Shown here piece by piece: positions 19,087 through 31,862 of a DNA stretch of 64,000 bases. The translations under genes were made by a program, and so were the position numbers. The stretch is taken from contig NZ_JXQM01000007.1 of the NCBI RefSeq assembly GCF_000832065.1, positions 62,001-126,000 of the forward strand, read 5' to 3'. The notes beneath the pieces are model-generated. The model was not told the DNA's origin and ran no database searches. It worked only from the letters and a program-made list of their open reading frames with translations. The stretch comes from Nitrosospira sp. NpAV. GTDB taxonomy: Bacteria > Pseudomonadota > Gammaproteobacteria > Burkholderiales > Nitrosomonadaceae. How positions within the stretch are numbered: position 1 is the first letter of the stretch; each line of letters begins with the position of its first letter.

Positions 19087-20313
19087 TTAGGCTCCTGACT
19101 CCGGCAGGAAGATCTGCAATAAATCGTTCAGAAAGCGCCTGCCGGCAAGAGTGGGCACGATTCGCTGACAATCGCGCGTTATCAGCTGTCGCCGCTCTGC
19201 CTCGTCAAGTTGTGGCTGGATACTGTCAATGGCCAGGCCGGTGCGCTCCTCAAACATTTTCGTCGCAAAACCCCCGGTCAGGCGCAGTGCGTTCATCATG
19301 AATTCGAAGCCCCGGTCATTCTGCCCTACTTCATGCTGTTCCATGACGGGTGAGTCAAAAGCCATCATGTCCGGCGAAGTTTTGGCAAGATAATCTCTGG
19401 GTTGTTTATAGCGCATCTGGCGCATCATTCTATCGGCAAAGCTTATTTTGCTGTGCGCACCCGCACCAATACCCAGATAGTCGCCGAACAGCCAATAATT
19501 CATATTGTGGCGCGATTCGCACCCGGGCTGGGCGAATGCCGAAGTTTCATAATTCAGGTAACCGCTCTGAGCAAGCGTTTGCTCGATCATTACCTGCATT
19601 TCCGCCGCCAAATCGTTATCCGGCAGCGGCGGTGGATAGCGATGAAACAACGTATTGGGCTCCAGCGTAAGATGATAAGCGGAAATATGCGGGACGCCGT
19701 AAGCGGCCGCAGTCTTGATATCGTTTCGGGCCTCCTCCATGGTCTGATGCGGGAGTGCGTACATCAGATCAAGATTCACATTGTCAAAATTCTCCTGGGC
19801 AATTTCGACCGCGCGATGCGCCTGGCTGCCGTCGTGGATTCGTCCCAGCGATTGAAGATGCCTGGGGTTGAAGCTTTGAATGCCGATGGACAGGCGATTG
19901 ATTCCCGCAGCGCGGAAATCGGCAAACTTTTGCACCTCGAACGTTCCGGGATTCGCTTCCAGCGTCACTTCCGCAAAATGTTCCAGCGGCAGCAAGGTCC
20001 TCACCGCGGTAAGAATCGCATCGATGGATCGGGCGCTAAACAGGCTGGGTGTGCCGCCGCCAAAGAATACGCTCGTTATGCTACGCCCCCAGATCTGCGG
20101 TAATGCTGTTTCCAGATCGCGGATCAGCGCGGTTACATACTCAGTCTCCGGCACATTACCATTTTCGCCACGAACCTCATGGGAATTGAAGTCGCAATAG
20201 GGGCACTTTTTCATGCACCACGGAATATGGATATAGAGACTCAGTGGGGGCAGCGATTTCAGTCTCAGAGAGGGGGTGTCCGGCATAGATGCGGGAGGAA
20301 TGATTGCTGTCAT
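19087..20313 (-). CDS. hemW: heme chaperone HemW (radical SAM, HemN-like)
   Basis: Radical-SAM protein of the coproporphyrinogen-oxidase-like family; HemW members bind heme and are considered chaperones rather than oxidases. The 408-residue protein has the cluster motif C-x3-C-x2-C at residues 33-40 in IPWCMKKCPYC, then FFGGGTPSLFSARSI and SIGIQSFNPRHLQSLGR. HemN itself has an extra upstream cysteine (CxxxCxxCxC) that is missing here (Phe follows Asp), which supports HemW. It reads into the convergent trmB and lies downstream of rdgB-rph. Confidence 0.92.
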   Translation of the reverse strand: MTAIIPPASMPDTPSLRLKSLPPLSLYIHIPWCMKKCPYCDFNSHEVRGENGNVPETEYVTALIRDLETALPQIWGRSITSVFFGGGTPSLFSARSIDAILTAVRTLLPLEHFAEVTLEANPGTFEVQKFADFRAAGINRLSIGIQSFNPRHLQSLGRIHDGSQAHRAVEIAQENFDNVNLDLMYALPHQTMEEARNDIKTAAAYGVPHISAYHLTLEPNTLFHRYPPPLPDNDLAAEMQVMIEQTLAQSGYLNYETSAFAQPGCESRHNMNYWLFGDYLGIGAGAHSKISFADRMMRQMRYKQPRDYLAKTSPDMMAFDSPVMEQHEVGQNDRGFEFMMNALRLTGGFATKMFEERTGLAIDSIQPQLDEAERRQLITRDCQRIVPTLAGRRFLNDLLQIFLPESGA

Positions 20314-21997: not shown

Positions 21998-22864
21998 ATG
22001 ATCTACAGTATGACCGGCTATGCGGCAGTTGCAAAGGAGGTGCCGCATGGCTCACTGAATCTGGAGCTGCGCTCCGTCAACAATCGTTATCTTGACATTC
22101 AGTTCCGCCTGCCTGATGAACTCCGTTTGCTTGAGGCCAGGATGCGTGAGTTTTTGACGGCCAGATTGAACCGGGGAAAAATCGAATGCCGTTTGAGTTT
22201 TTCTCGGCTCGCGAGTGCCGAAGATCCGCAGCAAATCAATACCGACTTGCTACAAAAACTGCTTGAATTGGACCGCATCGTCAGAGGGGTCCTGCCGGGT
22301 GCGCGAGGCCTCGAAGTGGCCGACATCCTTCGCTGGCCGGGAATACTGGGGGCCGATTCCCCACCTGCGGAAAGCTTAGGCGAGTCATGCATGGAATTGC
22401 TAAGCATTGCCCTGGATGAGTTTGCCGCGGCACGCGCCCGCGAAGGTGAGAAACTTCAAACCATCCTGCTTGAGCGTCTCGGCAAGATGCGTCGTCTGGT
22501 GGCGGAAGTATCGCCGCGTATCCCTGCGTTGCTTGTGGCATTCCGGGAGAAGATCAGATCCCGGCTGAGCGAGGCGATGATAAATCAGGACGATGATCGC
22601 ATCCGTCAGGAATTATTGCTATTTACCAGCAAAATCGATGTAGACGAAGAATTATCCCGCCTGCAGGCTCACCTAGATGAAGTTGAACGGGTCTTGTCCA
22701 GCGGGAGCGCGATCGGCAAACGCCTGGATTTTTTGATGCAGGAACTCAATCGCGAAGCCAACACGATAGGCTCAAAATCGGTGGATGTGGAAGTGTCGAA
22801 GATTTCCCTGGAGCTCAAAGTACTGATCGAGCAGATGCGGGAACAGGTACAGAATATTGAATGA
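21998..22864 (+). CDS. yicC: YicC family endoribonuclease
   Basis: Member of the YicC/YloC family, shown in Escherichia coli to be an endoribonuclease acting on small RNA. 288 residues with the typical start MIYSMTGYAAVAKEV, NLELRSVNNRYLDIQFRLPDELRLLE, and the strongly conserved C-terminus: HLDEVERVLSSGSAIGKRLDF followed by MQELNREANTIGSKS. gmk usually follows yicC directly; here gmk is 8.4 kb further on, separated by the accessory island. An intrinsic terminator follows about 40 bases after the stop codon. Confidence 0.95.
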   Translation: MIYSMTGYAAVAKEVPHGSLNLELRSVNNRYLDIQFRLPDELRLLEARMREFLTARLNRGKIECRLSFSRLASAEDPQQINTDLLQKLLELDRIVRGVLPGARGLEVADILRWPGILGADSPPAESLGESCMELLSIALDEFAAARAREGEKLQTILLERLGKMRRLVAEVSPRIPALLVAFREKIRSRLSEAMINQDDDRIRQELLLFTSKIDVDEELSRLQAHLDEVERVLSSGSAIGKRLDFLMQELNREANTIGSKSVDVEVSKISLELKVLIEQMREQVQNIE

Positions 22865-22960
22865 CCTTTCATAAAGAATCAGGCTATCTCAGTATTTTAT
22901 AAAAGCCGCTAACCATGCGGCTTTTTCATTTCATCCCATTGCAATACGTCTCAAGAAAGC
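22841..22960 (+). repeat. terminator-containing repeat, copy 1 (yicC 3' end)
   Basis: Begins in the last codons of yicC at GAACAGGTACAGA, continues through TTCATAAAGAATCAGG, the AGCCGC hairpin and CATTTCATCCCATTGCAAT. Copy 2 (30168-30262) shares the CAGGTACAGA start, the TCATAAAGAATCAGG core and the identical hairpin. Copy 3 (24212-24330) is more diverged. Because it contains the yicC coding end, this is likely the parent copy. Confidence 0.8.
22904..22927 (+). terminator. intrinsic terminator after yicC
   Basis: Six-pair stem AGCCGC/GCGGCT with a seven-base loop (22904-22922) followed by five T residues. The same hairpin recurs at 30215-30238 within repeat copy 2. Confidence 0.85.
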
Positions 22961-22981
22961 GCAATTTTATCGGGTACACCT

Positions 22982-23401
22982 ATGGGTATCGTCAACTCAG
23001 GCTGCGGGTTTTCAGGATTATTGCCTTTTACAAACCTTTATTTTTTTAGCGGTTATCAAGAACTTCGTCAAAGCCCCATTCATTTTGTAGATGACAAATC
23101 AATTCTTTCGCTTTTCAAACTCACCTTTGTTGCCTCCCATAATCAAAAATATTCAGCAAATGGCGGGTGTGAAATAGTAGGCTATGCGCATCCTGGCGTG
23201 CCGTGCAAAGCTGACAGCCTGATAGTCGAGTTGGCTGCTCAAATCCTTGCCACGCTTCGTACCGAGGAATGGGGTAACAGTGCGACATTGCTTATCCGTT
23301 CTGAGTCTGTATTGGGTAAACTGGGTATGAGCCCTGCCGGCCGGTCTAAGGTTTCCATATTTAAGAAGCAGGGACCAAATCCTTATGCTGAGTTTGGGTA
23401 G
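22982..23401 (+). CDS. hypothetical protein, C-terminus like phage terminase small subunit
   Basis: 139 residues. I do not recognise the N-terminal half, which is rich in aromatic residues. The C-terminal 45 residues (VLGKLGMSPAGRSKV, then a charged spacer and NPYAEFG) resemble the end of P27-type phage terminase small subunits, which typically finish with a GLTP/SRSRV motif and NPFAEF. It is shorter than intact P27 proteins and no other packaging gene is near, so this is probably a remnant fused to unrelated upstream sequence. It is the first gene of the island after repeat copy 1. Confidence 0.4.
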   Translation: MGIVNSGCGFSGLLPFTNLYFFSGYQELRQSPIHFVDDKSILSLFKLTFVASHNQKYSANGGCEIVGYAHPGVPCKADSLIVELAAQILATLRTEEWGNSATLLIRSESVLGKLGMSPAGRSKVSIFKKQGPNPYAEFG

Positions 23402-23446
23402 TCAATAATCGTCGGCAATAAGCTCAGGATTGTTTAGAATTCTTTA

Positions 23447-24027
23447 TTGCTGGTCTATATAAATCCAACTTGTTGCGCAAAAGTGAAGCCCATTTTGAAA
23501 AGCCGAGCCAAGAAACTATGCTATCTGTGTGGCTCTAATGCTACTACCAGGGATCATGTGCCTCCCGTTGGACTTTTCCCTGCACCTCGACGTAAAAATC
23601 TCATTACAGTACCAGCCTGCAAGCCATGCAACGAGAAGAACTCTCTTCACGATGAGATTTCCGACTTGTAGTTGCCATGGGTAGCGAGAGCAGCTCAGCG
23701 TCACTTTCATTGTTGCATCAGCGCATCTTGCCGCGCATGCATAGAAGGCCTGCACTGGTAGCTGATCTGATGAAACGCCTGTGCTGGACAGAGATTAAAA
23801 GTAAAGAGAGAATACATCTCGGACGTGCACATGCCTTTTCTCCTGATACTAATCGTATTCAAATAGTTATCGAAAAAATTATTAGAGGATTGTATTATCA
23901 TCACACCCAGCGAATATTACCTCTTCATTATTTTATAGAAGAGTATTCGCGAAATCTGGATCTTCCAGAAGAGTTTTTAAGAATGATGGCCAGTCTTTCT
24001 CGGCATGATATTGGAGATGAGGGTTAG
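23447..24027 (+). pseudogene. HNH endonuclease-family gene with a frameshift
   Basis: Two adjacent frames together make one protein. The first (23447-23671) has a CYLCG knuckle, DHVPPVGLFPAP, ITVPACKPCN and ends at a TAG after HDEISDL. The second frame, entered just before that stop, reads RLVVAMGSESSSASLSLLHQ and continues to 24027 with RGLYYHH and a C-terminal helix. Gain of one base near 23660 would restore FRLVVAMG after the HNH core. This matches the layout of stand-alone HNH proteins with a CxxCG-DHVPPK-CxxCN core and a helical tail. The start is unclear (TTG at 23447 or a later GTG). Confidence 0.6.
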
Positions 24028-24570
24028 TATTTAGCTATATCTCATAGACGACCAAGCTACTGGAAATAGTTTTTGGTTCTTAATGTTTTATGAGCGTACT
24101 TTATTTTTAAGTCGCACTGCCCCTCATGACGGGTACCTTTGAGTGTACATACAGGTAAGATTGAATAAGATAGACTTTTTATCCATGCGAATATAATGGG
24201 GCTACTTCTTATTCAGGTACATTTCAAAGAATCAGGTAGTCTCATAATTTCCGTAACTTCCTAAAAAGCTGTTGCCCACTCAGCTTTTATCATTTCACCC
24301 CATTGCAATTCATCTCAGGAAGCTCACAACTCTTGTGTACCCAGTCGTGTACACAAGGGACTTCATCTCCAAAATTTTGAGGTACATATACACCGAATGC
24401 GGCAATGCCAGAATGAGGCTTTTGCCCTAAAAGAATAATGGGCAAACGAACAAGTAGAGCACGCTCTTTGAGAATAGGCGTGGAAGCTACTATTTAGCTA
24501 AAGAACTAGAGGATTTTCTGATGAATTTCAGCTGCAAACCCCAATGGAGAAGCGGGAAGTTTCTATAAAT
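24028..24570. other. 543-base non-coding stretch in the island
   Basis: A/T-rich. It holds repeat copy 3 (24212-24330) and otherwise no frame that looks coding on either strand. Probably decayed sequence between the HNH pseudogene and the 3' end of the Mur-ligase-like gene. Confidence 0.5.
24212..24330 (+). repeat. terminator-containing repeat, copy 3 (diverged)
   Basis: Shares with copy 1 the words CAGGTAC, AAAGAATCAGG, a central hairpin (here AAAGCTG/CAGCTTT at about 24264-24287) and ATTTCACCCCATTGCAATTCATCTCA. The hairpin sequence has changed but pairing is kept. Confidence 0.6.
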
Positions 24571-25812
24571 TTAGTAGCAATTGTCGCATCTAAAACATTC
24601 TTTCTTTATGCGGCAACTGGTACTCCAGCAAGCAACTTTTTTTTCGTAATCCATGGCGACTCGCTCCAGATGGTCGGTATATGCGGATCCTTTTAAAAGT
24701 ATTACTTCCCCCGGGATCATGGTTTCACGGATGAAATCCCGCAACTCAACGATGTTTGATATGAACTTGGCTCGCCCTGACAACACATCTTCCTCGTCCG
24801 GCCTTGCGTGAGAAGCCTTTTCCCCGAAGAAAATTACCCTGTCAGCCAACTTTCGGGCAAGCTCATAGGCTAGTTTATAGTGGGTGTGAATACCCTTCTT
24901 GGATTTATCCGACACGGTCCCAAGCACTATTGTTCTTCGTGGCGCCTGTGGAAAGTTACTTATCGTTTGTAAAGCCAGATGCAGGGTCCCAAATGGCGCT
25001 TTCGCCGTGTCGCAGATAAAAATGGGAGCATTCGGACTGGAATGCAAAGAGCAGCGTCCTAGTGTCTGAGTAAATGTTTTACTGCGCTCGGCCAATGAAG
25101 ATAGCGAAATGCCAAGTTGATGTGCGCAAGAAATGGCGCCCAACAATGGAGTCATAAAATGTAGCCCCAGTAATCCGACATCAAATTGGACAGATTCTTT
25201 CTTGTGACGACACGTGAATCGCAAATGTCCATCAGCTGAAATGCTTAGGTCTGTGGCACAATAATCCGCCTCTTCTGATTTACCATATGTAAATACTTTT
25301 GCTGCGGTTCTTGCACGCATATCAAGGACTCGGGGATCATCTGCATTCAAAAATACCACTCCACTCGGAAGAATATTTGATGCAAGACAACCTTTTTCTT
25401 GTGCAATATCGCCGATGCCATCAAAGTTTGTAATGTGTTCTTCTGCAATCACCGTTATTATTCCAAATTCCGGCTGCACGAATTTACAAGCCGCATCTAT
25501 CGCACCTCGCCTGTCTCCGCTGATTTCGAAGACCGCATATTTGATGTTTCTAGTAAGCTTTCGAATACCTCCCTGGATTGAGGGAAGAGCATTATCGAAA
25601 GCAGATAGAGCGCATCTGTCATTTTCACTCAGCAGGTGATGAATAAAACGTGCAGTAGTAGTCTTGCCGCCACTACCGGTTATCCCTATGAATTTCGTGG
25701 AGCCCATTCTGGAGCGCTTGCGGAGAAGGAATTTTTCCATTTCTTCGCTGGATGGGCGCCTCCTTGACTTCAGGAATGTCTTAAGCTTTAGCCACTGGTA
25801 ATCCAGAGCCAT
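24571..25812 (-). CDS. Mur-ligase-like ATP-dependent amide ligase with cysteine-rich tail
   Basis: 413 residues with the Mur ligase three-domain plan, closest in pattern to MurF. The ATP loop is GITGSGGKTTTARF (43-56), NADDP is at 156-160, the central-domain LGLHFMTPLLGAISCAHQLG replaces the usual HNxxNxxAAxA pattern but keeps the histidine, and LLKGS lies in the C-terminal domain. It lacks the UDP-binding N-terminal domain expected of peptidoglycan ligases: only about 40 residues precede the ATP loop. The last 20 residues carry five cysteines (Cys395, Cys400, Cys406, Cys409, Cys412). The start has AAGGA nine bases upstream and overlaps the small CCxxC ORF. The family joins a carboxylate to an amine through an acyl phosphate; the substrate here is unknown. 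Confidence 0.8.
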   Translation of the reverse strand: MALDYQWLKLKTFLKSRRRPSSEEMEKFLLRKRSRMGSTKFIGITGSGGKTTTARFIHHLLSENDRCALSAFDNALPSIQGGIRKLTRNIKYAVFEISGDRRGAIDAACKFVQPEFGIITVIAEEHITNFDGIGDIAQEKGCLASNILPSGVVFLNADDPRVLDMRARTAAKVFTYGKSEEADYCATDLSISADGHLRFTCRHKKESVQFDVGLLGLHFMTPLLGAISCAHQLGISLSSLAERSKTFTQTLGRCSLHSSPNAPIFICDTAKAPFGTLHLALQTISNFPQAPRRTIVLGTVSDKSKKGIHTHYKLAYELARKLADRVIFFGEKASHARPDEEDVLSGRAKFISNIVELRDFIRETMIPGEVILLKGSAYTDHLERVAMDYEKKVACWSTSCRIKKECFRCDNCY

Positions 25813-25940
25813 GCCAATTTATCCTTGAGATTGGAAGTAAATTTGTTATCATCTTCTATATGCATGATGCATGCCGGGCAGCAATCTTCCTGACTCCATA
25901 GGCGAGCGTTCTGCGCCATGCACTCGCGATTTGAAAACAT
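25788..25940 (-). CDS. small CCxxC protein preceding the Mur-ligase-like gene
   Basis: A 50-residue frame in the 200-base gap between the PP-loop gene and the Mur-ligase-like gene. It starts with MFSNREC, contains DCCPACIMH and ends with LAWLWITSG, overlapping the ligase start by 25 bases. AAAGG lies just before the ATG, at short spacing. It has four cysteines, a net acidic middle and a tryptophan-rich C-terminus ending Ser-Gly. I recognise no family. It could be a small metal-binding partner, a carrier or substrate peptide for the ligase, or a chance frame. The overlap with a well-supported gene on the same strand and the residue composition favour a real gene, but only moderately. Confidence 0.4.
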   Translation of the reverse strand: MFSNRECMAQNARLWSQEDCCPACIMHIEDDNKFTSNLKDKLAWLWITSG

Positions 25941-26012
25941 GCCTTTCCGGTCGCAATAGTGGCGGCGTCCCTGATGAACCGAAACATGCCAGAGTTTTCA
26001 AGCACATGTGCC

Positions 26013-27119
26013 TCAAGGCCGGGCACTTTCAATGCTTTCCTCCGACCGTTTAATTAGCTTCCCCAGCGCCTTATCGATGGGTGGATCGAGATGTCCTATC
26101 AGTTCCCTTCTGAAATTAAGTGGCAGGTTATTTGTTAGTGGCGGCAAGGCCTCGATGGCTTGAATCAGAGGTATATCTTCGGGCAGGGTGCGGATCTGCA
26201 AATCCGGCGCATGCCAGCGCAAGGTCATGCGCAATAATACGCACTTATGGCAATAGCCACAGTTTCCGCGCGATGACGGATTTTCCCAGCATACGCGTAA
26301 GTGGTCCTTCATCAATGATCTTGCAACTGGGTGATTGATCAATCGCTTCAATTTTTCCGATCGGGAAACTTCATGGCCTATGCTTTTCACCGAAAGACGA
26401 CTTGAGGACCAATAAGAATCGAGATCGGGATGCGAGCCCCAGGGACCTAGGTGATCCTGATCATAGCTGGAAGAAATAAGCAGGGTACCAATATGCTTCT
26501 GCAGCAGATGCCCCAAAAATGCGACTGCGGCGCCATGAGAAGCCTCCCAGGATATTCTCCGAAAGAGACGATGCCCTTTGAGATCCGTCTCGATCATCGT
26601 CCAATTTTTTTCCGTTGCCTCAGCTACTGCAGCTAGCGAATTGCACATTGGGATGAGAATATCTCTTCGTTCCAATGGGATATCAAATCCGGAACCCAGA
26701 ATTAGAAGGTCGGGGCCCGGATCAGCAAAAAAACAGGAGTAAAACGAATCCACTCCCAGGCTGAATGCTAGTCCCACCCCTTGGCTCGGCTTGCCAGGAG
26801 CACCCGGTGTAAAGTCGGGGTGGATCAACCCCCAATCCCACCACTCATCTACCAGATCAAGTATGCGTTTTGTATTTTCCAGCCACTTCGGATCACATGA
26901 CTTTCCGGCAAGACGTCTTCCCATCGCCAGGGCAGGCAGTAGAAATGCAGTGCCCAAAGCCTCGGGAGAGAGAACAAGCTCTGAGTGTTCACTTCGAACG
27001 TGCAGGAATTTACCATCGATCCTCGTGCATAAATCATTGCCGTGCTCAACAAGCGACGGGATATGTACGGGAATATCGAGAAAACGAGCTATCCGATCAC
27101 GTATTTTGGGTTTCGCCAT
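26013..27119 (-). CDS. QueC-like PP-loop protein
   Basis: 368 residues. The N-terminal part is unassigned; a PP-loop ATP-pyrophosphatase core starts with GLAFSLGVDSFYS (117-128), where SLGVDS takes the place of the usual SGGxDS. Near the C-terminus is CWENPSSRGNCGYCHKC (277-293), a C-x9-C-x2-C-x2-C set that matches the zinc site of QueC (7-cyano-7-deazaguanine synthase), followed by LLRM as in QueC's CxLR. The intervening PWGSHPDLDSYWSS block is typical of an uncharacterised branch often met in polysaccharide clusters. It overlaps the pyruvyl transferase end by 23 bases, so the two are coupled. The reaction is unknown; ATP-driven amidation or adenylation is the family expectation. Confidence 0.7.
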   Translation of the reverse strand: MAKPKIRDRIARFLDIPVHIPSLVEHGNDLCTRIDGKFLHVRSEHSELVLSPEALGTAFLLPALAMGRRLAGKSCDPKWLENTKRILDLVDEWWDWGLIHPDFTPGAPGKPSQGVGLAFSLGVDSFYSCFFADPGPDLLILGSGFDIPLERRDILIPMCNSLAAVAEATEKNWTMIETDLKGHRLFRRISWEASHGAAVAFLGHLLQKHIGTLLISSSYDQDHLGPWGSHPDLDSYWSSSRLSVKSIGHEVSRSEKLKRLINHPVARSLMKDHLRVCWENPSSRGNCGYCHKCVLLRMTLRWHAPDLQIRTLPEDIPLIQAIEALPPLTNNLPLNFRRELIGHLDPPIDKALGKLIKRSEESIESARP

Positions 27120-28116
27120 ATTTATCAGTGGGCGATTTTTCGTCTGGTAGGACGCTTTGGCCTAATTGGACAATATCGCTTGATCCAGTCCAGGCAGCGG
27201 CATAGGTATGGTTCTTGCCATAGGAGTTATTCCAGATGGTATTCGGAATTCCCATCAGGCAAGCCAGAAGGTGGGCGTGCAGCCTATCAGTGGTGATTAT
27301 GTCAAACCGGCTGAATAGATGAACAGCGTCATCGATGAATTTACCTACGTACTCGACCCATAAATCCAGTCCATGGCTGACTCGTGCAAGACTGAAGTGC
27401 ATCAAGTGCAATGCACGCAATAAACGACATGCCCTTTGAATCCGGCGCTTCTCACTGCGCTGGAATAACTCTTCCCAGTCAGCACGCAGGTCAAAATCCG
27501 TTGCGATGGCATTCGCACGCTCCTTATCGACTCTCATGAGCGCGAGATGGCGGCTTTCAGGATGCCGGGAACGCTGTATAGGCCATAACTGATGCGCCAT
27601 ATCAGGTAGGAGATATACGTGCCGGGACATAGGTAGCGCAAGTTCATACGATGACCGGTCTCTGACGCAAATATGCAGGTCCGGATGCTGCGAAAAGGTT
27701 TTACAACACTCCTCGTATGCGTCCTTGGAGCGAAAATGGATGGTCTGGGGAAGAATGATTATTCTGTTCCTTGGCAGCGCCTGAATCACGCTGTGACGAG
27801 CCTGTTGGTGTCCGTCATAGAGATCGCCAAAATTTCCTCCACCTTGAAACACAATCACATCATTAGGAAGCGCCCACCTTGTGCGATAGCTGAAATAAGC
27901 TGCCTTAACACCAATTCTTATTTGATAGCGCTCGAAGAAGCGTAGCGTGCCGGACATGATCAACAGATCCCCTATGTTTCTGTGCATGGGAATATCAAGA
28001 TAGTGCACGCGATCTGCTCCAATCAGAGCAGCGAGGACATCATGCTCATCCGCAAGCGATTGCATTACTTCGGCATGATTGTTTTTCATTGCTAGTGCGG
28101 ATTCCCTATATCTCAT
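27097..28116 (-). CDS. polysaccharide pyruvyl transferase family protein
   Basis: 339 residues. Members add a pyruvate ketal from phosphoenolpyruvate to sugars of exopolysaccharides or cell-wall polymers. Diagnostic blocks are MHRNIGDLLIMSGT near residue 44, VIVFQGGGNFGDLYDGHQ near 90, ICVRDRSSYE and the C-terminal TTDRLHAHLLACLMGIPN with NSYGKN. ATG 28116 has GGGAG five bases upstream. It appears to be the first gene of a minus-strand operon that continues into the QueC-like gene, the CCxxC ORF and the Mur-ligase-like gene. Substrate sugar unknown. Confidence 0.85.
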   Translation of the reverse strand: MRYRESALAMKNNHAEVMQSLADEHDVLAALIGADRVHYLDIPMHRNIGDLLIMSGTLRFFERYQIRIGVKAAYFSYRTRWALPNDVIVFQGGGNFGDLYDGHQQARHSVIQALPRNRIIILPQTIHFRSKDAYEECCKTFSQHPDLHICVRDRSSYELALPMSRHVYLLPDMAHQLWPIQRSRHPESRHLALMRVDKERANAIATDFDLRADWEELFQRSEKRRIQRACRLLRALHLMHFSLARVSHGLDLWVEYVGKFIDDAVHLFSRFDIITTDRLHAHLLACLMGIPNTIWNNSYGKNHTYAAAWTGSSDIVQLGQSVLPDEKSPTDKYGETQNT

Positions 28117-28531
28117 ATGCAGCTCCCATCAAAGCCAGAAGATAGCTCTCAGCTCCTACCGCATCACGAAGTGTAAAAGCATCTCTCCCACGCTTTGTTT
28201 CTGTCAGACGAACGAGCAACACGATGAACCAAGATAGGTTGCTCATACTGTAGCTCATCCTTGGAATATACAGCCTATACCTTGGCAAGACAGGTTGAAT
28301 TTTCCTTGATGGGGAAAACAATGACTACCTGCAAGATTTTACAGCTATTGGGAAATGCATTTGCATGATGTAATATAGCATATCTCTCTTAACCCATGGA
28401 TTTATTAAGATATTTGGCGAATATTCCGCTACCGGATCAGTCCGGATGAGCGCTCTCATTCGCTACCGGATTTCGCGTTCTTCTTTTAAGATTTTTCTGA
28501 GACTCTTGCTCATAGGAATGCAAACATAGAC
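28117..28531. other. divergent region between pyruvyl transferase and glycosyltransferase
   Basis: About 415 bases separating two divergent genes, so it should hold both promoters. It contains an 11-base direct repeat CGCTACCGGAT at 28427-28437 and 28461-28471, 34 bases apart, a possible operator. A 71-residue minus-strand frame (28106-28321) is weakly coding-like and ends inside the pyruvyl transferase start; it may be a leftover N-terminal piece and I do not call it as a gene. Confidence 0.5.
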
Positions 28532-29644
28532 ATGCAAAATACGGACTCTTTACTAGCTCGTCTGGAAAAATTCGTAAGGAAGAAATTAGTTTTACGTGGA
28601 AAGCTCTTATGGGCTCGAATCAAATTCGAAATTCTGGGTCAGGCTGCAGGTCGATCAGAACTGAAGACAACGCTCATCTCAATGATAAGAAATGAGAAGG
28701 ACATCCTCGAGGCCTTTTGCGCGCATACCTCGTGCCTGTTTGATCGCGTTATTCTCATTGACCATCTCTCGTCCGATGGCACCAGGGAATATATAAAGCT
28801 TTTGTCAGAGAAAAGCTCCAATATCGAGTATTACTGCTTCGACGATCCTGGCTACTATCAGTCCGAACTGATGACCTGGACAGCACACCAGCTTGTGGAC
28901 AATAAAATGCCCGGATGGATATTCTTTCTCGACGCAGATGAGTTCTTGCCCTTTAAATCGAAGGAGGAGTTCGACGGCACGCTGTCAGAGCTCAGTCGAT
29001 TTCCAGCAATCTCCATGCCGTGGCTCAATCTGATTCCTTTGGACATGGAAAGTGGCAGGGTAATCGATGGGGTTTTTCTGAAACCTCCCAAACCTTCCCG
29101 TTTTAGAAAGATCGCTTTCCAACCCAACCGCATTCCTTTGAATGATTACTTTGTTGCGCAGGGAAATCATGACATATTCGTGGGAAGCAAGTCCTTGTGT
29201 ATAAGAGTTCCGGCCAAAAACAGTTTCCCGATTTACCATTTGCCAATACGGACAAAACAGCAATTTCGAGAAAAAATTAGATGTGGAGTCGAAGCATATC
29301 AACATATGGGTAGTCGTCGGCAGCGAACAAACGGTTTTCATTGGGATGAGATTCACTGCATTATGGAAACCACCAGCCTTACGGACGAAATGATGATGGG
29401 AATTGCAGCCCAATACAGCGACACCTTGCAGCCACCTTACGAGAAAAGCATTGATGATTTACTAAAACATGGCTACTGCGAAATGAAGATGGAGATATGC
29501 GGTTCCAAAGCCATGATCCCCTTCCCTGGCCAAAGCATTGCTAAAAATGACCATCCTTCTATAGGGACAAATATTGGTCGATCAACAAGTGACCCAAAAA
29601 TAGACTTTGACCGATCAATGGATTCCATGAGAATAACTGCGTAA
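28532..29644 (+). CDS. glycosyltransferase family 2 protein
   Basis: 370 residues. After a basic N-terminal helix, ISMIRNEKDILEAFCAHTS and VILIDHLSSDGTREYI form the nucleotide-sugar binding start of a GT-A fold (Glyco_tranf_2_4-like), and WIFFLDADEFLPF holds the DxD motif near residue 133. The C-terminal third with FREKIRCGVEAYQ is common in such enzymes acting on surface glycans. It is read divergently from the pyruvyl transferase operon, and shared location suggests it serves the same surface structure. Donor and acceptor sugars cannot be told. Confidence 0.8.
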   Translation: MQNTDSLLARLEKFVRKKLVLRGKLLWARIKFEILGQAAGRSELKTTLISMIRNEKDILEAFCAHTSCLFDRVILIDHLSSDGTREYIKLLSEKSSNIEYYCFDDPGYYQSELMTWTAHQLVDNKMPGWIFFLDADEFLPFKSKEEFDGTLSELSRFPAISMPWLNLIPLDMESGRVIDGVFLKPPKPSRFRKIAFQPNRIPLNDYFVAQGNHDIFVGSKSLCIRVPAKNSFPIYHLPIRTKQQFREKIRCGVEAYQHMGSRRQRTNGFHWDEIHCIMETTSLTDEMMMGIAAQYSDTLQPPYEKSIDDLLKHGYCEMKMEICGSKAMIPFPGQSIAKNDHPSIGTNIGRSTSDPKIDFDRSMDSMRITA

Positions 29645-29830
29645 CAATGTGCACTAGGACAAAATTTCGGATTTTGGCCTAAGGTAGCCATCGGGAAATC
29701 TCGTGGGGCTTAACCGGAAAGATACCCATTCTTGTATGGCAATCTAAAGGTACCTTTCGGATTGCAGATACTGCGCAGTAATGAGCAGTCGACGAATTTC
29801 AAGTAGACAATCCAGAAGTAGAGTTTTTCC

Positions 29831-30183
29831 CTTTGGGGGGTGTTCCCAGGCGCGGCATCTACGACAACATGAAGACCGCCGTGGACAAGGTCTACAGAAG
29901 TAACGGTCATGTTGTCAATACACGCCTCTTTGCCATGGCGGCACACTATCTGTTCGATCCCGACTTCTGCAATGTTGCCTCGGGCTGGGAGAAGGGGTAT
30001 TGTTGAGAAGAACGTGTAGGAAGCGCGCCGGCATATCTGGATGGATGTCATGCAGCAGCGTTTCAGCACGTTCGAGGAATTGAATGCCTGGCCTGCCCGT
30101 TGCCGCGCCTTGTGGTCGAGAGTGTGCGGCATCCGGAGCATGGCGGCATTACCGTTGCTGACGTGCTCGAACAGGTACAGATC
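29831..30183 (+). pseudogene. IS21-family transposase (istA) C-terminal remnant
   Basis: Fragments in shifting frames read GGVPRRGIYDNMKTAVDKV, then LFAMAAHYLFDPDFCNVASG and WEKG, followed after a frameshift by VEKNV, then a stop, MDVMQQRFSTFEELNAW in a further frame and RHPEHGGITVADVLEQ. These are consecutive blocks of the IstA transposase C-terminal half. At least two frameshifts and an internal stop make it non-functional; the N-terminal half and istB are missing. Its end fuses into repeat copy 2, since the VLEQ codons run into CAGGTACAGA. Confidence 0.75.
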
Positions 30184-30262
30184 CTTCATAAAGAATCAGG
30201 TCATTATTTTATATAGCCGCTAACCATGCGGCTTTTTTATCTCGCATTGCTGCAATTTACTT
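30168..30262 (+). repeat. terminator-containing repeat, copy 2
   Basis: Matches copy 1 from GAACAGGTACAGA through TTCATAAAGAATCAGG and the identical AGCCGC/GCGGCT hairpin (30215-30233) with six T residues. About ten bases after CAGGTACAGA, including the yicC stop, are deleted relative to copy 1. The similarity fades after GCTGCAATTTAC. Confidence 0.75.
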
Positions 30263-30292
30263 AAAGGGTGGCGCGTTTAGTCTAAGGGGACT

Positions 30293-30321
30293 GTAAAAGC
30301 CGCTGACCAGGCGGCTTTTAC
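30293..30321 (-). terminator. perfect hairpin downstream of the small lipoprotein gene
   Basis: Eleven-base perfect inverted repeat GTAAAAGCCGC/GCGGCTTTTAC with a seven-base loop. On the minus strand it gives a stem with a T-run inside its 3' arm, 22 bases after the lipoprotein stop, and it could also act in the other direction. Its core equals that of the repeat hairpins nearby. Confidence 0.7.
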
Positions 30322-30343
30322 GTCACGTGCCATTTTACTTAGA

Positions 30344-30508
30344 TCAGTATTGTTTCTCTGGAACCACGATGACTTTCTCGCTGGTACCGGATGGACCTTG
30401 CTGTCCTTGGGGTCCCTGTGGTCCAGGAGTGCCTCTGGAGCCAATTGCTATGCATCCACTCAGCCCGGTCAACATTACCAATACCGCAAACAGTTTTAAG
30501 TTTTTCAT
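30344..30508 (-). CDS. small collagen-like lipoprotein
   Basis: A 54-residue protein. It begins with MKNLKLFAVLVML and the lipobox LSGC (Cys19), so it should be lipid-anchored. The mature part is only 36 residues and contains a collagen-type Gly-x-y run, GTPGPQGPQGQQGPSG, followed by TSEKVIVVPEKQY. AAGGA lies seven bases before the ATG and a hairpin terminator follows the stop, so the gene is well formed. Short Gly-x-y segments can make triple helices or act as flexible spacers; its role is unknown. It lies just inside the far boundary of the island. Confidence 0.75.
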   Translation of the reverse strand: MKNLKLFAVLVMLTGLSGCIAIGSRGTPGPQGPQGQQGPSGTSEKVIVVPEKQY

Positions 30509-30759
30509 TAGACTTTCCTTTTTTAGTGGTTAATATCATAAGGAAAAATAACCTAATGTTGGGCTTGTAACAGTTTGCTACCGCACATTCAGCCGCTTTT
30601 ATTCCATGTTTTGTATGGATGATGGAGAATCGTGGGGGTGCCTTGCTACCTGATAAGCGGTTTGGAATGATCTCTCAGGCATGCTTATGCCAAGCATAGT
30701 GCTCGCGGGATTCAAAGATAAGGTAGAATCTTTCCCTGCCCATCAGATTGAGAATTCTC

Positions 30760-31191
30760 ATGAGCAATTCCCTGCACATTGTGTGTCCCCACTGTCAGGC
30801 GGTTAACCGCGTACCCGCTGGACGGCTCGAGCAGCAACCCAATTGCGGACAATGCCATCAGCCGTTGTTCACCGGTAGTCCGGTGGAGTTAACCGCCACT
30901 ACGTTTGGCAGACATCTCGCCCGCAACGACATTCCGGTGCTGGTCGATTTCTGGGCGCCCTGGTGCGGGCCTTGCAAAATGATGGCGCCAGCCTTCGAAC
31001 AAGCGGCGGTCATGCTGGAGCCGCATGTCCGGCTGGCGAAGGCCAATACCGAGGCCGAGCCAGCGTTGGGTGCGCAATATCATATCCGCAGCATTCCGAC
31101 ACTCGCTCTTTTTAGGGACGGTCGCGAGGTTGCGCGACAGTCTGGTACCATAGCAGCGCAAGATATTGTGCGCTGGGTTCAGTCCCGCTAG
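30760..31191 (+). CDS. trxC: thioredoxin 2 (zinc-binding)
   Basis: Cytoplasmic thiol-disulfide reductase of the TrxC type. The 143-residue protein starts with a zinc ribbon (Cys9, Cys12, Cys29, Cys32 in CPHC and CGQC) before the thioredoxin fold with the active site WCGPC at 68-72 and cis-proline in RSIPTLALF. ATG 30760 is chosen over the in-frame TTG at 30748 because homology starts at the IVCPHC block. It is followed after 44 bases by gmk, and marks the return to core genes after the island. Confidence 0.94.
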   Translation: MSNSLHIVCPHCQAVNRVPAGRLEQQPNCGQCHQPLFTGSPVELTATTFGRHLARNDIPVLVDFWAPWCGPCKMMAPAFEQAAVMLEPHVRLAKANTEAEPALGAQYHIRSIPTLALFRDGREVARQSGTIAAQDIVRWVQSR

Positions 31192-31235
31192 AAACCAGCG
31201 GCAGATTGCTACACTTTGGAAGAAACCATTACAAA

Positions 31236-31862
31236 ATGACGTGGGGTAATTTATTCATTATCAGCGCCCCCTCAGGCGCCGGAAAAACAAGCCTGGTTAA
31301 GGCATTGCTAAAAACCGGCATCGACTTGCGCTTGTCGGTTTCATACACCACGCGGCCAGCGCGTCCCGAAGAGGTGGATGGGCGTGATTATCATTTTATA
31401 AGCCAGGAAGCTTTCGAGCGGAGATTAAACCAGCATGAGTTTTTGGAAAGCGCTGAGGTTTACGGAAATTTCTATGGCACTTCACAAAAATGGATAAATG
31501 AAACCATCCTGGCGGGACACGATATTTTGCTGGAAATCGACAGCCAGGGTGCGCAACAGGTGCGGCGCGCTTTTCCCAGAGCGGTGGGAATTTTTGTTCT
31601 GCCACCATCGCCGGAGGCGCTGGAAACGCGCTTAATGCAGAGGGGCCAGGATAGCCTGGAAGCAATTACGCGGCGTCTCGCAGCTGCCCGTGAAGAGATG
31701 GCTCATATGAGCGAATATGATTATGTTATCATCAATGAGAAGCTGGACCGGGCATTGCAGGATTTGACCTGTATCGTACACGCCGAGCGCTTGAGGGCAT
31801 GCAGGCAGCTTGATCGCCATCGTGACCTGATAACACAATTCGAAAGAATGCCCGTTCTATAA
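31236..31862 (+). CDS. gmk: guanylate kinase
   Basis: Phosphorylates GMP to GDP; essential for GTP supply. From ATG 31236 it has 208 residues with the P-loop SAPSGAGKTSLVK (10-22), the GMP-binding SVSYTTRPARPEEVDGRDYHF and YGNFYGTSQKWI, and ILLEIDSQGAQQVRRAFP. The frame extends to 31206 without conserved residues, so the internal ATG is used. gmk, rpoZ and spoT in this order form the usual guanine-nucleotide and stringent-response cluster, normally preceded by yicC. Confidence 0.97.
   Translation: MTWGNLFIISAPSGAGKTSLVKALLKTGIDLRLSVSYTTRPARPEEVDGRDYHFISQEAFERRLNQHEFLESAEVYGNFYGTSQKWINETILAGHDILLEIDSQGAQQVRRAFPRAVGIFVLPPSPEALETRLMQRGQDSLEAITRRLAAAREEMAHMSEYDYVIINEKLDRALQDLTCIVHAERLRACRQLDRHRDLITQFERMPVL

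Follow-up and report, generated by a model that had tools for sequence, protein, structure and literature searches.

What does a polysaccharide pyruvyl transferase (PT) do beside a QueC-like ATP pyrophosphatase? The question is raised by a 64,000-nucleotide stretch of Nitrosospira sp. NpAV (genome G000; contig NZ_JXQM01000007.1, positions 62,001 to 126,000; hereafter the window). On its minus strand, four open reading frames (ORFs) lie in a row: the PT, the QueC-like gene, a 50-amino-acid Cys-rich ORF, and a MurF-like ligase (Table 1). A first-pass annotation, made from the letters alone, had taken the four for one undescribed pathway. The layout it described is correct, with overlaps of 23 and 25 bases and, by eye, ribosome sites before the PT (GGGAG, 6 bases from the first ATG) and before the ligase (AAGGA, 9 bases from its ATG). 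Its observation was partly borne out and its interpretation is partly supported: the part about the PT and the QueC-like gene is good, and the four-gene pathway is not supported. Judging from the sequences, the PT and the QueC-like enzyme are a recurrent pair, found in three phyla, that probably work together on surface sugars.

The PT is readily assigned. It matches PF04230 over residues 47-293 (108.3 bits, cut-off 25.3; E 8.5e-31) and contains the DRLH motif, and by family membership it would transfer pyruvate from PEP to a sugar. Its homologues in four other Nitrosospira (63-75% identity) align only from residue 9-14, which makes the second ATG, at 28089, the probable true start.

The name "QueC-like" proved apt for the fold and the core motifs, but no Pfam, NCBIfam, or PADLOC model matches the window protein at E 1. 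(The QueC family of Pfam, PF06508, falls below membership for it and is weakly detected in 3 of 14 members, with a best E of 0.024; weak matches to DUF6395 also occur in 3 of 14, with a best E of 4.3e-4.) S120, G122, and D124, as well as C277, C287, C290, and C293, are invariant in all 14 members, and the family has the SGGxDS-type loop (SLGVDS in the window) and the zinc cysteines of QueC. The exact patterns of the QueC substrate motifs YxQxHxxE, VPxRN, and YPDC are absent from all 16 members searched. We also looked for some of the published motifs of QatC: D-x4-R-x7-W-x-R is in 0 of 16 members and P-x4-T-K is in one, while the two-letter HP, in 15 of 16, is uninformative. The PADLOC profile for QatC does not match the window protein at E 10; among eight members it is silent in seven and gives E 0.071 in one. 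In a direct second comparison, the structure model of the QueC-like protein nevertheless matches QatC over nearly its full length, and the predicted structure has the QatC architecture of a core plus extensions. Among viral structures there were two matches under E 0.001, one of them named as a phage 7-cyano-7-deazaguanine synthase. The first-pass annotation held that the Qat defense system shares only a QueC-like member with this locus. For the genes this is right, as no Qat model matched the five other ORFs of the locus and its neighborhood (E 1) or ten flanking ORFs (E 0.01), but it understates the predicted structural likeness.

We have several pieces of evidence that the PT and the QueC-like gene belong together, as the first-pass annotation had supposed. 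First, they are adjacent in other genomes. We sampled 125 genomes from the family, 200 from the order, 369 from the class, and 398 from the phylum, in addition to the genus. QueC-like orthologues (67-80% identity) are found in 5 of 22 other Nitrosospira, and in four of these five a PT lies within about 1.5 kb; in the fifth (G306), a similar PT is on a separate 5-kb contig. A sixth Nitrosospira (G302) has only a distant QueC-like relative. Distant members were found in four other genomes of the order (E 0.001), in nine of the class (E 1e-15), and in nine of the phylum (E 1e-20). When PF04230 was searched genome-wide in the 29 positive genomes, 16 had one no more than 5 kb from a QueC-like gene (12 within 1 kb), where uniform random placement would predict 0.2 of the 29. 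These 16 are all seven Nitrosospira (G306 and G302 by way of distant QueC-like copies) and 9 of the 22 other genomes.

Second, in genome G494 the two proteins are fused in a single ORF of 753 amino acids, with the PT behind the QueC-like domain. Third, 14 plasmid records carry a QueC-like gene. On a Gemmobacter plasmid, one gene separates it from a PT. Among six other plasmids examined, five have a PT directly upstream of the QueC-like gene, annotated "hypothetical protein" (one from Gloeothece, three from Azospirillum, with A. brasilense Sp7 among the strains that have the pair, and one from Priestia). On the sixth, from Nostoc, the QueC-like gene is flanked by flippase and glycosyltransferase genes, without a PT.

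Fourth, in a tree of 31 PTs, the window PT falls in a clade of ten (support 95/95) that spans three phyla, and nine of the ten are linked to a QueC-like gene. (The tenth is on a 5-kb contig.) Three short PTs (L098, L042, and L202) were left out of this tree. The PT profile missed the PTs of G735 (L194 and L195) and the linked PTs of G558 and G1032, and the linked PT of G112 lies outside the locus used. In a tree of 54 QueC-like proteins, the partners of the window PT's clade are scattered, and the well-supported branches require 4 changes or more; we read this as repeated pairing. Since the QueC-like partners do not form one clade, we dropped the idea that the module was inherited together as a single unit. 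A caveat for both trees is that they contain several long branches, including the G494 fusion and an Azospirillum PT, and some rows of unusual composition. Fifth, many members have glycan genes around them. Among 136 neighbor proteins of 25 QueC-like loci (18 genomes of the class and phylum samples; 136 of 141 proteins, with five long ones left out), the commonest families include Glycos_transf_2 (9) and related glycosyltransferases, Polysacc_synt_3 (5), Glycos_transf_1 (5), and PS_pyruv_trans (5).

Two further observations concern the QueC-like family. It is also present on 14 contigs of a viral collection (L144-L157). And differing QueC-like copies lie next to each other at six places (L099:8994-12424, L131:8784-11388, L133:8820-11169, L139:8574-11005, L140:8841-11233, and L004:176-2592), hinting at heterodimers.

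How might the two enzymes work together? A pyruvate ketal bears a carboxylate. The PT would put such a ketal, and hence a free carboxylate, on a sugar, and the QueC-like enzyme would adenylate this carboxylate, or a uronic acid that belongs to the same glycan; the activated carboxylate would then become an amide or be coupled to an amine. We infer this as the simplest joint reading of the pair. The predicted fold of the QueC-like enzyme, its retained ATP loop and zinc-type cysteines, and the chemistry of QueC and Cap9 speak for it. Our preferred reading of the locus, which we judge to be about evenly balanced between right and wrong, is that its core is a two-enzyme module, a PT with a QatC-shaped QueC-like ATP pyrophosphatase, both working on one surface glycan, and that the ligase was added here. 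In this strain, the module shares a variable island with a glycosyltransferase and with the added MurF-like carboxylate-amine ligase, whose role may be to add an amino acid to this or another polymer. The 50-amino-acid ORF would have no role.

Several points weigh against this two-enzyme reading. The random expectation of 0.2 genomes exaggerates the surprise, because glycan genes cluster anyway. In 13 of the 29, no PT is found up to 5 kb away, and 7 of those 13 lack a PT altogether, so a pyruvate ketal cannot be the sole substrate of the QueC-like enzyme, nor one that it can always use. On the whole tree of 31 PTs, linkage to a QueC-like gene switches 7 times, compared with a mean of 10.6 after shuffling; PTs with and without a linked QueC-like gene are thus intermingled beyond the window PT's clade. 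A loose partnership would also fit the incongruent QueC tree. Foldseek alone gave no match in the PDB under E 0.001, and QatC was not among the 50 matches listed. The counts of neighbor families lack a background comparison, and one protein can match several families. Finally, the loci of G333 and G373 and one of two in G427 have few or no glycan genes by eye.

The genomes without a nearby PT would also fit a looser arrangement, in which both enzymes decorate polysaccharide loci and act independently on different parts of the same glycan. The Nostoc plasmid, with its QueC-like gene among flippase and glycosyltransferase genes, and the unlinked PTs in the same genomes agree with this. Against it stand the G494 fusion, the repeated pairing over the QueC tree, and the Azospirillum pair, which has no other glycan-assembly gene annotated within 6 kb. 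(The gene table there is incomplete; tagaturonate reductase and aldose epimerase are annotated nearby.) We consider independent action a possible but doubtful explanation.

Another alternative is that the QueC-like enzyme modifies a protein, along the lines of QatC and Cap9, by joining some group to a partner's N-terminus, perhaps that of the PT or another neighbor. The QatC profile, though, is nearly silent in the eight members compared with it and D-x4-R-x7-W-x-R is absent from the 16 searched, and 9 of the 25 commonest neighbor families are glycosyltransferase models. The sole conflict-system name among those families, GT4-conflict, is itself a glycosyltransferase model. Also, the N-terminus of the PT in G494 is not free, since it lies behind the QueC-like domain. 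Protein modification thus seems unlikely.

What of the ligase? The annotation as a Mur ligase was sound: matches to PF08245 (Mur_ligase_M, E 3.9e-28) and PF02875 (Mur_ligase_C, E 1e-8) indicate the ATP-binding central domain and the C-terminal domain. The NCBIfam model for murF gives 184.5 bits, under its cut-off of 288.6. The N-terminal UDP-sugar domain of MurF is missing, as Mur_ligase_M starts at residue 44 and the murF profile is matched only from position 73. In the tail, C395, W396, C400, C406, and C409 are invariant in 11 of 11 seed members, while two members from G625 lack the tryptophan. With a profile of the ligase family, complete members score 299-724 bits, canonical MurF proteins score at most 210, and the larger piece of an interrupted frame in G220 scores 221. 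Among the matches listed, the rows below 211 bits end by profile position 399, except for G411 (412), so canonical MurF would seem to lack the Cys4 tail. By profile score and tail, the ligase is a family apart from MurF. (CapB and MurT are other two-domain relatives.)

The ligase rarely accompanies the pair. In the family sample, the seven matches at E 1e-30 come from G000 and six genomes of a genus that is presumably Nitrosomonas (g2), so no other genome of the same genus has the ligase, and it is missing from the four other Nitrosospira with a PT beside an orthologous QueC-like gene. Further members come from four genomes of the class, four genomes of one genus in the phylum sample, and one Gemmobacter plasmid; no ligase loci were found on the viral contigs. 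Scoring up to four candidates per genome in the class and phylum samples, only G000 has both the ligase family and a QueC-like gene. Among the loci fetched, the ligase is near a QueC-like gene in the window, on the Gemmobacter plasmid (which has a PT as well), and in G220, whose ligase frame is interrupted. With three loci among those examined, its link to the pair is weak.

The Cys-rich ORF is most likely non-coding, although a comparison of just two species is a slender basis. Downstream of the QueC-like gene in the Nitrosospira genome G288 there is homologous DNA, and the mismatches to it are spread evenly over the three codon positions (13/15/14), versus 68/31/155 for the QueC-like gene of the same two genomes. 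(As a control, in 32 fifty-codon pieces of the QueC-like gene, third positions account for 49-78% of the mismatches.) An alternative frame is open over much of the stretch (58 amino acids, TTG start, 25856-26032), and a GGAAAGG before the ORF's ATG ends, by eye, with a single base to spare, closer than ribosome sites usually lie. We had considered the ORF as a conserved substrate, since a CCxPC stretch in G288 (L039) looked homologous, and dropped this when the codon-position test gave no coding signal.

These results bear on the original proposal of a four-part pathway, with pyruvylation, carboxylate activation, Mur-type amide ligation, and the Cys-rich peptide as a carrier or substrate. The overlapping frames in one orientation speak for it, and so does the Gemmobacter plasmid, where a PT, a QueC-like gene, and a ligase of the same family lie within 4 kb. 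Given the rarity of the ligase beside the QueC-like gene and a peptide with no sign of coding, we think this pathway very improbable. It appears that the ligase and the small protein are local company for the pair and not fixed parts.

The ligase family could instead be part of an independent aminoacyl-tRNA system. Several relatives are fused to peptidyl-tRNA hydrolase (Pth; L026:11392-13344, L025:7803-9668, L025:9723-11615, L090:9653-11566, and L087:9364-11532). The Pth domain is C-terminal in members from g2 and G638 and N-terminal in one from G602, and a separate pth gene is kept in 6 of 6 fusion genomes tested. N-acyl-aminoacyl-tRNA is a substrate that Pth cleaves. The ligase would acylate the amino group of an aminoacyl-tRNA and the Pth domain would release the product. 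However, at 413-451 amino acids, a number of the ligases leave no room for a full Pth (those from the window, G107, Gemmobacter, G398, G625, and four genomes of the phylum sample), and the tail has no usable model (AF2 single-sequence pLDDT 45.3). This reading strikes us as improbable. Beside g2 ligases there is also a different small PP-loop protein (L024:12096-12956, with a QueC Pfam match of E 0.0067, and L023:78-485), which the QueC-like profile missed. At L025 and L027, g2 ligases lie in gene clusters. ATP-grasp genes, one of them ATPgrasp_ST, are among the neighbors (L025), and AsnB-like genes were noted by eye, suggesting amino acid or amide decoration of polymers.

Table 1. Features of the window (strand as given in the analysis).
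Feature	Coordinates	Strand	Details
PT, PF04230 polysaccharide pyruvyl transferase family	27097-28116	-	339 aa; Pfam
QueC-like / QatC-shaped ATP pyrophosphatase	26013-27119	-	368 aa; PP-loop SLGVDS, C-x9-C-x2-C-x2-C
50-aa Cys-rich ORF, probably not a gene	25788-25940	-	codon-position mismatches versus G288
MurF-like ligase without N-terminal domain, C-terminal tail CW-x3-C-x5-C-x2-C	24571-25812	-	413 aa; Pfam, NCBIfam
Glyco_tranf_2_4 glycosyltransferase, divergent neighbor	28532-29644	+	Pfam E 4.5e-12
Variable island, 7.9 kb	22865-30747	.	between yicC and thioredoxin
yicC	21998-22864		island flank; Pfam
Thioredoxin	30748-31191		island flank; Pfam
gmk (guanylate kinase)	31206-31862		island flank, beyond thioredoxin; Pfam

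The genes under study lie in an island. Thioredoxin is at most 1 kb from yicC in 8 of 22 other Nitrosospira loci. It was not seen in the other 14, where the fetched locus reached about 1.5 kb past yicC or less, so the stretch seems variable there too. The GC content of the PT, QueC-like, ligase, and glycosyltransferase genes is 0.45-0.50 (0.46-0.50 for the first three), versus 0.54-0.55 for the flanks. By Pfam, the flanking genes encode Ham1, RNase PH, YicC, thioredoxin, guanylate kinase, and RelA/SpoT. Homologues of the divergent glycosyltransferase are near the pair in three of the four Nitrosospira that have it (tblastn 66% in G294, L038; 61% in G292, L040; 55% in G307, L037), and in G288 one is beside a second QueC-like gene. 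At the edge of the island, an HNH-like ORF (weak HNH_5; weak PADLOC PDC-M01B) followed by a short ORF without a match in another frame (23447-24027) looks like a fragmentary gene. Short ORFs at 29781-30006 (no Pfam match for 29833-30006) are presumably the remnant of an IS21-type transposase. Membership in a defense system was rejected: PADLOC gave nothing for the six ORFs of the locus and its neighborhood (E 1), and its matches among ten flanking ORFs (E 0.01), namely RelA/SpoT to PDC-S33 (4.8e-16) and weak ones for the ORF at 19087-20313 and for gmk, were read as housekeeping.

The first-pass annotation knew of no described system with this combination, and for the pair this was upheld. Our literature searches gave no paper linking pyruvyl transferase with 7-cyano-7-deazaguanine synthase or a QueC-like enzyme, nor QueC or peptidyl-tRNA hydrolase with a Mur ligase; papers on QatC and polysaccharides were, by title, unrelated, and in PMC9956331 "QueC" is just a piece of an author's name. 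The recurrent pair, with its predicted fold link to an antiviral enzyme, is thus without a description in the searches made. More speculatively, and with considerable doubt, we propose a glycan system shared across phyla, in which a QatC-shaped enzyme of the QueC fold amidates the ketal carboxylate set by its paired PT, or joins an amine to it. On this view, the defense protein QatC would be related to a lineage of enzymes that modify sugars. As a separate part of the same proposal, the Cys4-tailed Mur ligases with their Pth fusions would represent a new tRNA-linked route by which amino acids are added to polymers of the envelope. Should the paired chemistry hold, bacteria would have a new way of decorating their surface sugars, and the question of QatC-type catalysis could be approached with a simple pair of genes from harmless soil bacteria. 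The family of Mur-Pth fusions also calls for an explanation.

How do these proteins compare with known systems? The window PT shares PF04230 and the DRLH motif with PS_pyruv_trans enzymes such as WcaK and CsaB. It differs in that the CsaB model gives it just 19.1 bits (cut-off 213.1) and in that nine of the ten PTs of its clade are paired with a QueC-like gene. Like MurF, the ligase has the central and C-terminal Mur domains of two-domain Mur ligases; murF is its best NCBIfam model and MurF is the best PDB match of its profile. Unlike MurF, it scores below the murF cut-off, has its P-loop near residue 45 (about 100-120 in MurF chains), carries the Cys4 tail, and has relatives fused to Pth.

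In the published map of the QueC superfamily (PF06508), there are queuosine, Qat and CBASS defense, LarE, WbpG, and GMP synthetase types (PMC13329287). This map does not seem to cover a QatC-shaped branch from polysaccharide loci, because PF06508 misses the window protein and matches weakly in 3 of 14 members. QueC activates a carboxylate by adenylation for the addition of ammonia, Cap9 joins its own carboxylate to the amine of a protein, and the reaction of QatC is still to be settled (PMC13329287, PMC13279940, PMC13060819). Compared with QueC and Cap9, the 16 QueC-like members searched lack the exact patterns of the three substrate motifs, and they are 368-431 amino acids long, versus about 220 for QueC (PMC13329287). 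They differ from QatC of qatABCD (9y01; PMC13279940) in that the QatC profile misses the window protein, in that they lack D-x4-R-x7-W-x-R, and in that no model for qatA, qatB, or qatD matched among the neighbors scanned. A difference from the N-acetyl-sugar amidotransferase WbpG, in cluster 5 of PF06508 (PMC13329287), is that the window protein has no NCBIfam match. WbpG is similar in kind: it too is an enzyme of the QueC superfamily in the synthesis of a surface sugar.

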